Shown here in pieces: positions 8,109-12,527 of a stretch of 64,000 bases of DNA. The stretch's first letter is position 1, and the number at the start of each line of letters is the position of its first letter. Location: the NCBI RefSeq assembly GCF_010119195.1, contig NZ_WRXL01000001.1, forward strand, positions 372,001 through 436,000, read 5' to 3'. The stretch comes from Haloarcula salina (GTDB taxonomy: Archaea > Halobacteriota > Halobacteria > Halobacteriales > Haloarculaceae). Position numbers and translations under genes: made by a program. A model generated the notes under the pieces. The model was not told where the DNA came from and searched no databases. It was given only the letters and a program-made list of their open reading frames with translations.

Positions 8109-8975
8109 ATGACTATTAACTCAGAATCAGTATTTAATAACTCTGGGCGGGCGTCGCTCGTCGGCGTCGCGAGCGTCGTCGGCCTGCTCGTGCTGTCCGG
8201 CGTCGCCGTCACCGGAGGTGCGTCCAAAGTGCTGGTCATCTCCTGGGTCGCCTTCGCCGCGATGGCGCTCGGGGCGTGGCTCGGTGCGCGCGCCGACGAG
8301 ACGAACCCGTACCGGCTGGTCTGGGGGTACGGGCTGGCGAGCGGCGCGATGGTGACCTCGGCGGCGATGTTCCTCGTCCCGCAGGCGATGGGACTGGGCG
8401 GACAGGCCGGCGCGGCCCGGATCGGCGGCGTCGGCATCGCGGCGGGCATCGTCGTCGGCTACGGGACCCACACCATCGGCCACCGGCTGACCCACCTCGA
8501 CACCTCCTTCGACATGACGACGACCGCCATCGCCGCCCACGCGCTCTCGGCGGGGCTGGTCATCGGCCTCGTCTACGCCTCGATGCCCGAACTCGGCATC
8601 CTGCTCGGACTCGCAATCGTCTCGCACAAGGGCCCCGCCGGCTACGCCGCCGCCCGACGCCTGGGCCGCAGCGGCAAGTCCGCAACCGCCCTCCTGCTCC
8701 CCGCGACCGGCGTCGGCCTGACGGCCATCCCGTCCGCCCTCCTCCCGGCCCCCGAGTCCGCGGTCGTCAACGCCGTCATCTTCGGCTTCGCCGCCGGCAT
8801 CTTCCTCCACGTCGCGATGGACTTCCTGCCGAACTGCGAGGCCGGCAGCGAGATCGACGAGGTCTGCTCGCTCCACGAGCACTCCCACGACCTGCTCGAC
8901 GAACTGCGGACCCACGCGGTCGGCTCGACCGTCCTCGGCGCGGCCGCCGTCGTCCTCGCCTGGGTCGCTATCTGA
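8109..8975 (+). CDS. ZIP-family divalent metal transporter
   Basis: 288-residue membrane protein with about eight helices. The metal-path helices carry the His-rich motifs typical of ZIP transporters: GTHTIGHRLTH near residue 120, AHALSAGLVIG near 143 and VSHKGPAGYA near 170, then a His-containing FLHVAMDFLPNCE near 240. ZIP proteins move Zn2+, Fe2+ or Mn2+ into the cytoplasm. The C-terminal loop SLHEHSHDLLDE is a possible extra metal-binding stretch. The first codons are AT-rich (MTINSESVFNNS). No metalloregulator lies beside it, so regulation is unknown. Confidence 0.85.
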   Translation: MTINSESVFNNSGRASLVGVASVVGLLVLSGVAVTGGASKVLVISWVAFAAMALGAWLGARADETNPYRLVWGYGLASGAMVTSAAMFLVPQAMGLGGQAGAARIGGVGIAAGIVVGYGTHTIGHRLTHLDTSFDMTTTAIAAHALSAGLVIGLVYASMPELGILLGLAIVSHKGPAGYAAARRLGRSGKSATALLLPATGVGLTAIPSALLPAPESAVVNAVIFGFAAGIFLHVAMDFLPNCEAGSEIDEVCSLHEHSHDLLDELRTHAVGSTVLGAAAVVLAWVAI

Positions 8976-9413: not shown

Positions 9414-9785
9414 TCACTTTTCGAGGCGTTCCCGCCGCTCGTCGGGCGGTTCGAACGGGCGGTCCTGTCCGTCGAAGTCATAGACGGTCTCCGGAACGTC
9501 ACTGGCGTCAGATGGACGCGCGCCGTCTGCGGTGCCTGACTGTCTGGCCCGGTCCCCAGACTCCGACCGCACCGGCACGTGCCACTCCGCCGCGTCGTCT
9601 TCGTCGACGATGACGTAGTACTTGCTCGCCTCCCAGCAGAGGAACAGGACGAAGGTCGCGGGCGTGAGAAAGAACGCCCCCTCGAAGGCCGACAGGTGCG
9701 AGCGGAGCACGACGAAGGCGGTGGTGGCGACGAGTCCACCGGCACAGACCCCGAAGACGAGCGTCCGGACGCGGGCTCGCCTCAT
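9414..9785 (-). CDS. Membrane partner of the 7TM-ATP-grasp protein
   Basis: 123-residue protein with two N-terminal membrane helices (about residues 7-28 and 33-53) followed by an acidic, charged cytoplasmic tail containing WHVPVRSE and FDGQDRPFEPPDERRE. Its ATG overlaps the stop of the upstream gene (ATGA), so the two are translationally coupled and very likely act together. A longer in-frame start exists seven codons upstream, but the overlap decides for MRRARV. No known family recognised; I infer an accessory or assembly subunit of the ligase. Confidence 0.75.
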   Translation of the reverse strand: MRRARVRTLVFGVCAGGLVATTAFVVLRSHLSAFEGAFFLTPATFVLFLCWEASKYYVIVDEDDAAEWHVPVRSESGDRARQSGTADGARPSDASDVPETVYDFDGQDRPFEPPDERRERLEK

Positions 9786-11533
9786 CGGTACCCCGCCTGT
9801 TCCCACCGGCGAGCGAGTTCGACCTTCCGCTCGGGCGGGTAAAACTCGTGCTCGGGCGAGAGCGATTCGACGTACTGCAGCCGTCCGAGGAGCCCCGTAC
9901 GGGTCGTGTTCTGAATGCCGAGTCCCGGCGAGGCATTGACTTCGAACACCTGCGGCACGCCGTCGCTGTCGACCGCGATGTCGACGCCGGCGTAGCCCAG
10001 TCCCGACGCGCCCGCCGCCCGGACGGCGACGTCGAGCACGTCGGTCCAGTTCGGCACCTGAAACGTCGTGAGGTCGGTTCCGGTGTCGGGATGCGTCGTC
10101 AGCCAGCGGTGGTGGCTCTGCTGGTACGCGCCCAGCGACGTCCCGTCCGCGATCGACAGTCCGACGCCGACCGCGCCCTTGTGCAGATTGGCCTGGTCAC
10201 CGGACTCGGCGGTGGGGAGACGCACCATCGACATCAGCGGATACCCCTCGAACACGAGGACGCGGATGTCGGCCACACCGCCCGAACTCCGCGCCTCGAA
10301 GAACGGGTGCTGCTCGATGCGCTCCTCGACGATCACCTTCCCGTCGCCACCGAGCCCCGAATACTGCCCCTGGAGGATCCGGCGGGCGTGCCGGAGCAGT
10401 TCGGTCGCGGTCCGGGCCCCCTTGCCGGTCCGGTACGTCTCTCCGTCGCGGCCGCGCACGACGACGATCCCCTCCCCGCCGGAGGCGCCGTCCGGTTTGA
10501 GCACGAACTGGTCGTGGGTCTCGATCGCGTGGCGAACGTCGTCGAGGTCCGCCTCCTCCTCGGCGATCGCGAAGGCGACCGGCGTCGGGATACCGATGGC
10601 GAGGAATCGGCGTTTCGCCTCCACCTTGTTCGCGCTGTGTCTGAGATGTCCGGGGTTGTACTTCCTGATGTAGCGGTTCCTGACGTTCATCGTGAGGGCC
10701 GTGCCGACGTGGAGGCGCTGGGTCTCGCCGCGGAGCCGGGCTCGGAGGTTCGTGCCGGCGACCTGGAGCCGTCGCCAGATCCCGTTGAGCGCACCGCCGT
10801 AGTGGACGCTGAACCGGTAGTACTCCTTGAGTCGGATGCGGGTCGTCGCGCCCAACACGATGCTCAGCGCCACCATCGCGACCCACGCTTCCGGGGTGTC
10901 GAGGAACCACTCGATGAAGGCGGTCGCCGAGATGACCGCGTACGCGACGGTGATCGTCACCAGCGTCCAGAGCAACTGAATCGACGGGACCGACCAGCCG
11001 CGTTCGTCGACGTCGCTCGCGAACCGCTCGGCGTACCACGCCGTGAGGATCGCCGGGAAGAATACCCGAATCGTCCCGGAGAGCCGCGGGAGGAGCCCGA
11101 TGTCTCCGAGCACGAGAGCCGAGGCGACGGCGATTGAGACCACCGCCATGATCGTTCCCACCCGGTGTGCCGTCCCGATGCCGAACGGCTCCAGGATGTA
11201 GTAGACGCCAAGCGAGATGACGAAGATGTTGAGAAACAGCGCCATTCCCCAGAGAAGCCCGGTCGAGACGAGGACGAACGAGATGACGGCGGGTGCGAAC
11301 AGGCCGTAGGTCTTGATACCGAACTCGTTGCGGAACGTCGCGATGAGAATCCCCGCGATGGCGAGCTGAAAGAACGTCTCGTACCGGGAGAGTGCGGCCG
11401 AGAGCGACCCGGTCAACACCCGGAGAACCCAGCCGAGTAACAGCAACGTGAGCAACAGACTGAGCAGCAAGTAATAGCGACGAAACGCGTCGTCGAAGAT
11501 CGTCGTTATCGGTCGTAGCGTCCGTACACCCAT
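9782..11533 (-). CDS. 7TM (UUP1-like) membrane domain fused to a RimK-type ATP-grasp ligase
   Basis: 583-residue fusion. Residues about 20-245 hold seven or so membrane helices, including FGIKTYGLFAPAVISFVL, which resembles the 7TM_transglut/UUP1 membrane family. Residues about 285-575 are an ATP-grasp ligase: KVEAKRRFLAIGIPTP, the ATP-lysine strand FVLKPDGASGGEGIVVV, and the metal-binding end VFEVNASPGLGIQN. In bacteria a UUP1-type protein and a RimK-related ligase are usually separate neighbouring genes; here they are one chain. ATP-grasp ligases of this class join an amine to a carboxylate through an acyl phosphate, so I infer a peptide or amino-acid ligation at the cytoplasmic membrane face. 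The substrate is unknown. First gene of a two-gene operon, divergent from an E2-like acyltransferase. Confidence 0.85.
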   Translation of the reverse strand: MGVRTLRPITTIFDDAFRRYYLLLSLLLTLLLLGWVLRVLTGSLSAALSRYETFFQLAIAGILIATFRNEFGIKTYGLFAPAVISFVLVSTGLLWGMALFLNIFVISLGVYYILEPFGIGTAHRVGTIMAVVSIAVASALVLGDIGLLPRLSGTIRVFFPAILTAWYAERFASDVDERGWSVPSIQLLWTLVTITVAYAVISATAFIEWFLDTPEAWVAMVALSIVLGATTRIRLKEYYRFSVHYGGALNGIWRRLQVAGTNLRARLRGETQRLHVGTALTMNVRNRYIRKYNPGHLRHSANKVEAKRRFLAIGIPTPVAFAIAEEEADLDDVRHAIETHDQFVLKPDGASGGEGIVVVRGRDGETYRTGKGARTATELLRHARRILQGQYSGLGGDGKVIVEERIEQHPFFEARSSGGVADIRVLVFEGYPLMSMVRLPTAESGDQANLHKGAVGVGLSIADGTSLGAYQQSHHRWLTTHPDTGTDLTTFQVPNWTDVLDVAVRAAGASGLGYAGVDIAVDSDGVPQVFEVNASPGLGIQNTTRTGLLGRLQYVESLSPEHEFYPPERKVELARRWEQAGYR

Positions 11534-11735
11534 CAGTACTGCCAGTTTGGGTACCGATGAGCATTAGGTATTCGGTGTCGATGATCGAGATTGATACTTT
11601 CTGCATCCGGATAATCACGATTGAACAGTTGTACTATTTGCTTACTCACCAGACACGGTCGTTTGCGCCTATCGATCAGCGGTGATCGCCCCGGTCGGTG
11701 CGTACGGATTTAGGCTGCGCCGTCCACCTGAGTCT

Positions 11736-12527
11736 ATGAGCGGCCGAGAGCCCGAGACCGAGCGCGTATCTCCGCAAAAGCAGCTGACCGGCGAGTACAT
11801 GCAGATGGCGGGGCGTCGGAGCAACGTCCACGGACTGGTCGAAATCGACGTCACCGACGCCAGAGAGCGGATCCAAGCCATCGAGGAAGAGACCGGCATA
11901 GCGCTCTCGTTCACGGCTTTCGTCGTCTCCTGTCTGGCGGCTGCCGTGGCGGAACAGCCGGAAGTCGACCGCTATCACGACTGGCGGGGACGGGTCCACG
12001 AGTTCGAGGACGTGGACGTGAACGTCCTCGTCGAACGGGAGGTCGACGGCGAGCGGATCGGCGTCCCCCACGTCGTCCGCGCGGCGAACCGGCGGACGGT
12101 TCGGTCGATTCACGACGAGATTCGACGCGTCCAGACGGAGCCGTCATCCGGTACGGAGGCCGGGTTCGACGCGCTCGTCCGCCGCCTTCCCGGATTCGTC
12201 CGCAGGCAGCTCTGGCGACTCCCGCAGTGGTTCCCGTCGCGGTGGAAGGGCCTGGCCGGCACCGTCGCCGTCACGTCGGTCGGGATGTTCGGTTCCGGAA
12301 ACGGGTGGGCGATCAGTCCCACGAACTACACCCTCCAGCTCACCGTCGGCGGCATCGGAACCAAACCACGCCTGATCGACGGAGACCTCCGGTCACGCGA
12401 GTTCCTGAGCGTGACCGTCACCTTCGACCACGACGTGGTGGACGGGGCGTCGGCCGCGCGGTTCGTCCAGCGTCTCCGCACACACCTGGAAGACGGGTCC
12501 GGGCTGGACGCCGTCTCCGGCGAGTGA
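11736..12527 (+). CDS. Lipoyl-less E2-type (CAT-fold) acyltransferase
   Basis: 263-residue protein matching only the catalytic domain of 2-oxo acid dehydrogenase E2 subunits. Seen: SFTAFVVSCLAAAVAEQPEV, the mid-protein GTVAVTSVGMFG, and the active-site FDHDVVDGASAARF with the catalytic HxxxDG. A normal E2 is 400-550 residues with an N-terminal lipoyl and subunit-binding domain; both are missing and no in-frame sequence upstream encodes them. It therefore probably transfers acyl groups from CoA directly and not from a lipoyl arm. The insertion RLPGFVRRQLWRLPQWFPS is amphipathic and may contact the membrane. It is divergent from the 7TM-ATP-grasp operon across 202 bp. Confidence 0.82.
   Translation: MSGREPETERVSPQKQLTGEYMQMAGRRSNVHGLVEIDVTDARERIQAIEEETGIALSFTAFVVSCLAAAVAEQPEVDRYHDWRGRVHEFEDVDVNVLVEREVDGERIGVPHVVRAANRRTVRSIHDEIRRVQTEPSSGTEAGFDALVRRLPGFVRRQLWRLPQWFPSRWKGLAGTVAVTSVGMFGSGNGWAISPTNYTLQLTVGGIGTKPRLIDGDLRSREFLSVTVTFDHDVVDGASAARFVQRLRTHLEDGSGLDAVSGE

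Follow-up and report, generated by a model that had tools for sequence, protein, structure and literature searches.

A RimK-type ligase fused to a 7TM domain, together with a two-TM partner, is a haloarchaeal form of the RloB-RloC pair

Genes at the locus

The window is the whole stretch of 64,000 nucleotides of Haloarcula salina DNA that was analyzed. On its reverse strand, an open reading frame (9782..11533 (-)) encodes a protein of 583 residues that consists of a 7TM_transglut membrane domain and a RimK-type ATP-grasp ligase. The ATG is the only start codon in this open frame. The assignment is based on Pfam and NCBIfam profiles, an alignment of 19 orthologues and an AlphaFold2 model. The stop codon of the fusion gene overlaps the ATG of the following gene (9414..9785 (-)) within an ATGA. 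This translationally coupled gene encodes a partner of 123 residues with two transmembrane (TM) helices and an acidic tail, which is predicted to be cytosolic. No Pfam family above the cut-off was found for the partner.

On the other strand, a gene starting at the ATG at position 11736 (11736..12527 (+)) encodes an acyltransferase of 263 residues. The starts of this gene and of the fusion gene are separated by 202 bp. The acyltransferase possesses an intact HxxxDG motif (HDVVDG), and its only Pfam match is PF00198; no match to the lipoyl or the peripheral-subunit-binding domain was detected by Pfam. Thus, the original prediction of a divergent, E2-type gene without a lipoyl domain was correct, and all the coordinates stated for the locus hold.

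Ligase domain and membrane region of the fusion protein

Pfam analysis assigned fusion residues 50-242 to 7TM_transglut (PF14402; 70.6 bits against a cut-off of 25, E 1.8e-19) and residues 285-556 to ATPgrasp_ST (PF14397; 203 bits against a cut-off of 31.4, E 6e-60). These two matches confirm that a 7TM domain and a RimK-type ligase are present in one chain of 583 residues. The membrane part also matched positions 314-503 of the 508 positions in the NCBIfam RloB profile (E 6e-11), which are the C-terminal 7TM of RloB. In the profile-profile comparison with RloB-type homologues, the probability was 99.8 (E 8e-30). Kinship of the N-terminus to UUP1/7TM_transglut had been proposed, and the PF14402 and RloB matches, used here as stand-ins for the name UUP1, bear it out. 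No match to the transglutaminase ectodomain (PF14400) was detected in the window fusion by Pfam. The 19 aligned fusions come from many genera and keep about 80 invariant columns. Thus, the fusion is not a chance event.

The ligase domain (9866..10681 (-)) possesses the RimK-like motifs DxR, NLHxG, D518/E531/N533 and PGLG. In the 19 orthologues, K346, E403, D422, R424, R438, N449, H451, D518, E531 and N533 are invariant, and the metal/ATP residues of the ATP-grasp fold (K346, D518, E531 and N533) are therefore intact. When the fusion alignment was searched against the PDB sequences, RimK was the first match, with aligned DxR, NLHxG and D...ExN...PGL motifs. The AlphaFold2 model of the fusion had a pLDDT of 82.5. 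RimK structures were the best fold matches of its ligase domain, and the best ATP-grasp match in the PDB was 5zct. Fold searches with the whole fusion (PDB and viral structures) placed ATP-grasp proteins at the top among the matches listed, and no named fold relative of the membrane part appeared among those matches. The predicted RimK-type identity is therefore borne out by the Pfam, fold and motif matches. However, RimK is a soluble enzyme without a membrane domain, and its identity to the fusion is 22-25% among the structural matches listed. The TIGR02291 profile (rimK_rel_E_lig) gave 236 bits for the window ligase, under the cut-off of 314, and it scored below the cut-off for the haloarchaeal fusion proteins tested.

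The membrane region (10779..11497 (-), residues 13-251) is predicted to comprise eight helices, within residues about 13-245, and both of its ends would lie on the inner side. The topology was assigned manually from helix boundaries, hydrophobicity and charge. Helix 1 would be the counterpart of the anchor at the RloB N-terminus, and a short turn near residues 42-44 would replace the ectodomain. Six charged residues (R68, R124, R170, R234, E237 and R240) are invariant in the alignment (n=19), and they are located in or next to the stretches assigned as cytosolic in the manual topology. Four of them (R68, R124, E237 and R240) recur in all the RloB-type homologues examined, which are from Legionella, Aeromonas, CPR and an archaeal MAG.

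The two-gene cassette among haloarchaea

The fusion was detected in 22 of 391 genomes of the haloarchaeal class. A single-protein pattern scan of genome contigs gave nothing; an alignment-based scan did reveal carriers. Among the carriers with a name are Haloferax, Halorubrum, Haloarcula japonica, Natrarchaeobius, Salinigranum, Halostagnicola and a plasmid of Halobacterium sp. DL1. Of the 22 fusions, 20 form one open frame, one is split by a frameshift (G120) and one is frameshifted near the C-terminus (G332). Fragments were found in three further genomes (G013, G294 and G377). In 393 genomes sampled separately across the phylum, PF14402 was detected in five haloarchaea and in one distant, incomplete MAG. 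Frameshifted, split or remnant fusions were observed at the loci L049, L050, L054, L055 and L056, and those at L055 and L056 lie beside syntenic neighbors. The degraded copies suggest that the fusion is frequently lost.

The genes around the fusions were called by a purpose-written codon-usage script, and their boundaries are approximate. In all 19 independent neighborhoods, the fusion is accompanied by a small two-TM protein immediately downstream, either coupled or joined to it, and this partner is the sole constant companion. The partner start is offset from the fusion end by -4, -8, -11 or -1 in nearly all of them, and it is fused onto the ligase C-terminus in L036 and L060. The position is constant and the sequence is weakly conserved: M1, F38 and F45 are invariant and P42 is nearly so. 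In the structure prediction of the natural triple fusion of L036, the pLDDT was below 50 in the linker and about 40-55 in the partner helices, too low to inform on the docking of the partner. The coupled membrane partner seen in the window is a general feature of the neighborhoods. The partner was also considered as an acceptor of glutamylation. This candidate was rejected as unlikely because the partner C-termini are not conserved and mostly do not end in Glu. In Haloarcula japonica (L045:10898-11650 (+) / L066), the partner is extended at its C-terminus by a tail that contains two DUF1508 (PF07411) domains.

Two pairs of loci show how the genes travel. L033 and L034, which belong to different families, have in common a block of 2,384 bp (L033:8533-10916 and L034:8558-10941) that is 99.9% identical and contains only the two cassette genes. 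Outside the block, one 45-bp match was found elsewhere. A MITE-like inverted repeat is located at one end of the block, with its arms at 8534-8569 and 8698-8733 in L033. Similarly, L042 and L043 have 2,304 bp in common at 89% identity and nothing else. Since these blocks hold only the fusion and the partner, the cassette moves as a two-gene unit. The plasmid cassette of Halobacterium sp. DL1 lies near transposase genes. In the 19 neighborhoods, whose genes are partly annotated, no family besides the partner recurs beyond a few scattered cases. As the block common to two families holds just these two genes, the functional unit is the fusion and its two-TM partner.

The acyltransferase (ACYLTRANSFERASE) behaves differently. 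A strong homologue of it is present in 58 of the 391 genomes and in three of the 22 fusion genomes (Fisher p=1.0). The original prediction had called for a survey across Halobacteria for the three genes together. In the 19 independent neighborhoods, no acyltransferase homologue was found near any other fusion copy, whereas the partner was always kept. Among 12 other acyltransferase loci, ten have no neighbor in common with the window. In the remaining two, one or three window genes recur, all of them unrelated and distant. The fusion and the acyltransferase are about 96 kb apart in G332 and on different contigs in G312. Homologues of the acyltransferase in other haloarchaeal families are about 80% identical to it although only the 58 genomes carry the gene, and it is probably mobile itself. 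It is a lone, patchily distributed gene, which is adjacent by happenstance here and lies outside the system.

Relation to Rlo systems and proposed function

In Pseudomonas, the rloABC operon encodes a secreted retropepsin (RloA), an inactive transglutaminase-7TM protein (RloB) and an ATP-grasp protein (RloC) (PMC12239564). The haloarchaeal cassette has the same 7TM and ATP-grasp families in the same order, and these are directly adjacent genes in rloABC. It differs from rloABC in being a single chain without the transglutaminase ectodomain, in the lack of a nearby RloA and in the extra two-TM partner. As originally stated, bacteria encode the two parts separately: this holds for Pseudomonas (PMC12239564) and likewise for Legionella and Aeromonas. 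PF14400 is present in the RloB of both. In Legionella, the retropepsin, transglutaminase-7TM and ATP-grasp genes lie together. In Aeromonas, a single stop separates the 7TM gene from the ATP-grasp gene, and the frame is the same in both; thus, loss of this stop is all that a fusion needs. We conclude that the cassette is the version of the bacterial RloB-RloC pair that haloarchaea possess. The fusion with its two-TM partner is an apparently new form of a Rlo-type membrane ligase, a kind that is already known and poorly understood.

Other relatives carry other ectodomains. An operon of CPR (Candidatus Kerfeldbacteria; L071:4993-8425 (+)) has the same 7TM and ATP-grasp families in overlapping genes (ATGA): a PKD-7TM gene, a fusion of the ATP-grasp ligase with a retropepsin-like domain, and a second retropepsin. 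Here, in contrast to the haloarchaeal form, 7TM and ligase are separate and the ligase is fused to the retropepsin. A non-haloarchaeal MAG of the same phylum (L094:6404-8737 (+)) possesses an Asp/Thr/Ser-repeat ectodomain on the 7TM and a separate, adjacent ATP-grasp gene. Since the ectodomains differ among the Legionella, CPR, MAG and haloarchaeal forms, the ectodomain is exchangeable or dispensable, and the 7TM and the ligase are the constant core.

No RloA retropepsin was found near any fusion. PF05618 matches occur in all 22 fusion genomes, mostly in frames of 450-550 residues. This family was rejected as the RloA counterpart, as the matches are at other loci, away from the cassette, and the Haloferax volcanii control contains this family too. 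At two loci, a putative secreted M61/M1-like metallopeptidase follows the cassette (L036:7315-8715 (-) and L035:11208-12635 (+)), and it overlaps the cassette in L036. An HEYxH motif was seen in L036; PF05299 was below the cut-off in L035 and gave no match in L036. It is possible that this metallopeptidase stands in for the missing RloA.

Pseudomonas rloABC is linked to hypo-osmotic tolerance, biofilm and cell shape (PMC12239564). RloA cleaves polyglutamate as well as, in vitro, polyglutamylated RpsF, and its predicted glutamate-binding residues matter in vivo (PMC12239564). Deletion of rloB or rloC fully rescues the growth of an RloA-less strain in hypo-osmotic medium and partly rescues its other defects (PMC12239564). 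This places RloBC upstream of the material that RloA removes. That report names polyglutamylated proteins and free poly-alpha-glutamate as possibilities, and its discussion does not assign their synthesis to RloBC (PMC12239564). RimK makes poly-alpha-L-glutamate, and in Pseudomonas it is stimulated by the protease RimB (PMC11957791). We found no RloC product described in this Rlo and RimK literature (PMC12239564, PMC11957791). The original prediction spoke of a pathway with no described product; this still holds, but the related rloABC operon now has a phenotype and a protease that cleaves polyglutamate (PMC12239564). The simplest common reading would be that RloBC makes a polyglutamyl product, which appears outside the cytosol of Gram-negative bacteria and is trimmed off there by the secreted RloA.

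For the haloarchaeal cassette, we tentatively favor, at a probability of roughly 40%, a membrane-embedded RimK-type ligase whose product, an acidic glutamyl chain with alpha linkages, is passed on to the membrane or through it. The membrane region would have its two ends in the cytosol, and there the RimK-like domain would bind ATP together with its amino acid substrate, which is most likely L-glutamate. The ligase would activate a carboxylate as an acyl-phosphate and add residues to the chain. The conserved, arginine-rich cytosolic face of the helix bundle may receive the chain, and the bundle may anchor it or move it across the membrane; the two-TM partner may serve as an assembly or gating subunit. 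By homology with the bacterial system, the product may be a polymer. With no RloA alongside the cassette, this acidic polypeptide would stay on the surface or be released, formed by the same chemistry without a trimming protease. We hold a more far-reaching version to be doubtful, in which the cassette is a self-contained, mobile poly-alpha-glutamate synthase-translocase of an undescribed kind, with a ligase, its own exit bundle and an accessory subunit. By homology, bacterial RloBC would then be such a machine too and the source of the polymer that is removed by RloA.

Somewhat unlikely is a ligase that glutamylates a protein, possibly a membrane protein, as RimK does with ribosomal protein S6, the helix bundle being a mere anchor or sensor. 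Several points fit this idea: RimK is the nearest relative with a solved structure, polyglutamylated RpsF is a substrate of RloA in vitro (PMC12239564), and the fusion tethers the ligase domain to the membrane. However, the neighborhoods show no conserved target gene alongside the cassette, and the helix bundle has many invariant charged residues, beyond what a plain anchor needs.

We consider it unlikely that the ligase amidates a membrane-bound carboxylate, such as a glycan uronic acid or a lipid head group, with an amino acid. Acidic glycolipids and S-layer glycans with uronates occur in haloarchaea. In Pfam, the ligase is best matched by PF14397, which is named 'sugar-transfer associated ATP-grasp', and a location at the cytosolic leaflet of the membrane would suit such a substrate. 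However, apart from the partner, gene families recur around the cassette only in the handful of scattered cases among the partly annotated neighbors, and the related bacterial operon is tied to polyglutamate cleavage (PMC12239564).

PgsBCA/CapBCA is a candidate for a system that works alike, with an ATP-dependent amide ligase, a multi-helix membrane subunit and a small membrane protein, although PgsB is a Mur-type ligase and the homology of the membrane subunits is at the candidate level. That the membrane part is a distant PgsC/CapC homologue, and the cassette a PgsBCA-like exporter in which ATP-grasp replaces the Mur-type ligase, seems improbable to us. In a comparison with haloarchaeal PgsC repeats, the motifs matched collinearly along about 143 columns. 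In the global profile comparison, the score was 13.6 against a best of 11.4 in 55 control windows of other membrane proteins and 6.8-7.5 for reversed profiles, a weak, marginal difference. However, the local profile comparison gave a probability near or below 1%, no better than the reversed controls, and PF14102 matches no RloB-type protein. Thus, PgsC/CapC homology is not established by these sequence comparisons.

Finally, the joint membrane ligation or acylation pathway of fusion, partner and acyltransferase that was originally predicted is extremely improbable. In its favor is the adjacency over 202 bp in this one genome; it is contradicted by the other neighborhoods, the background-level co-occurrence (3/22 vs 58/391), the separate locations in G332 and G312, and the transfer of the cassette without the acyltransferase.

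The existence of a natural fusion is evidence for RloB and RloC working together as a single machine. Furthermore, the absence of the transglutaminase domain and the protease defines the minimal core of this machine, and the haloarchaeal cassette offers a simple test case for the activity of RloBC.
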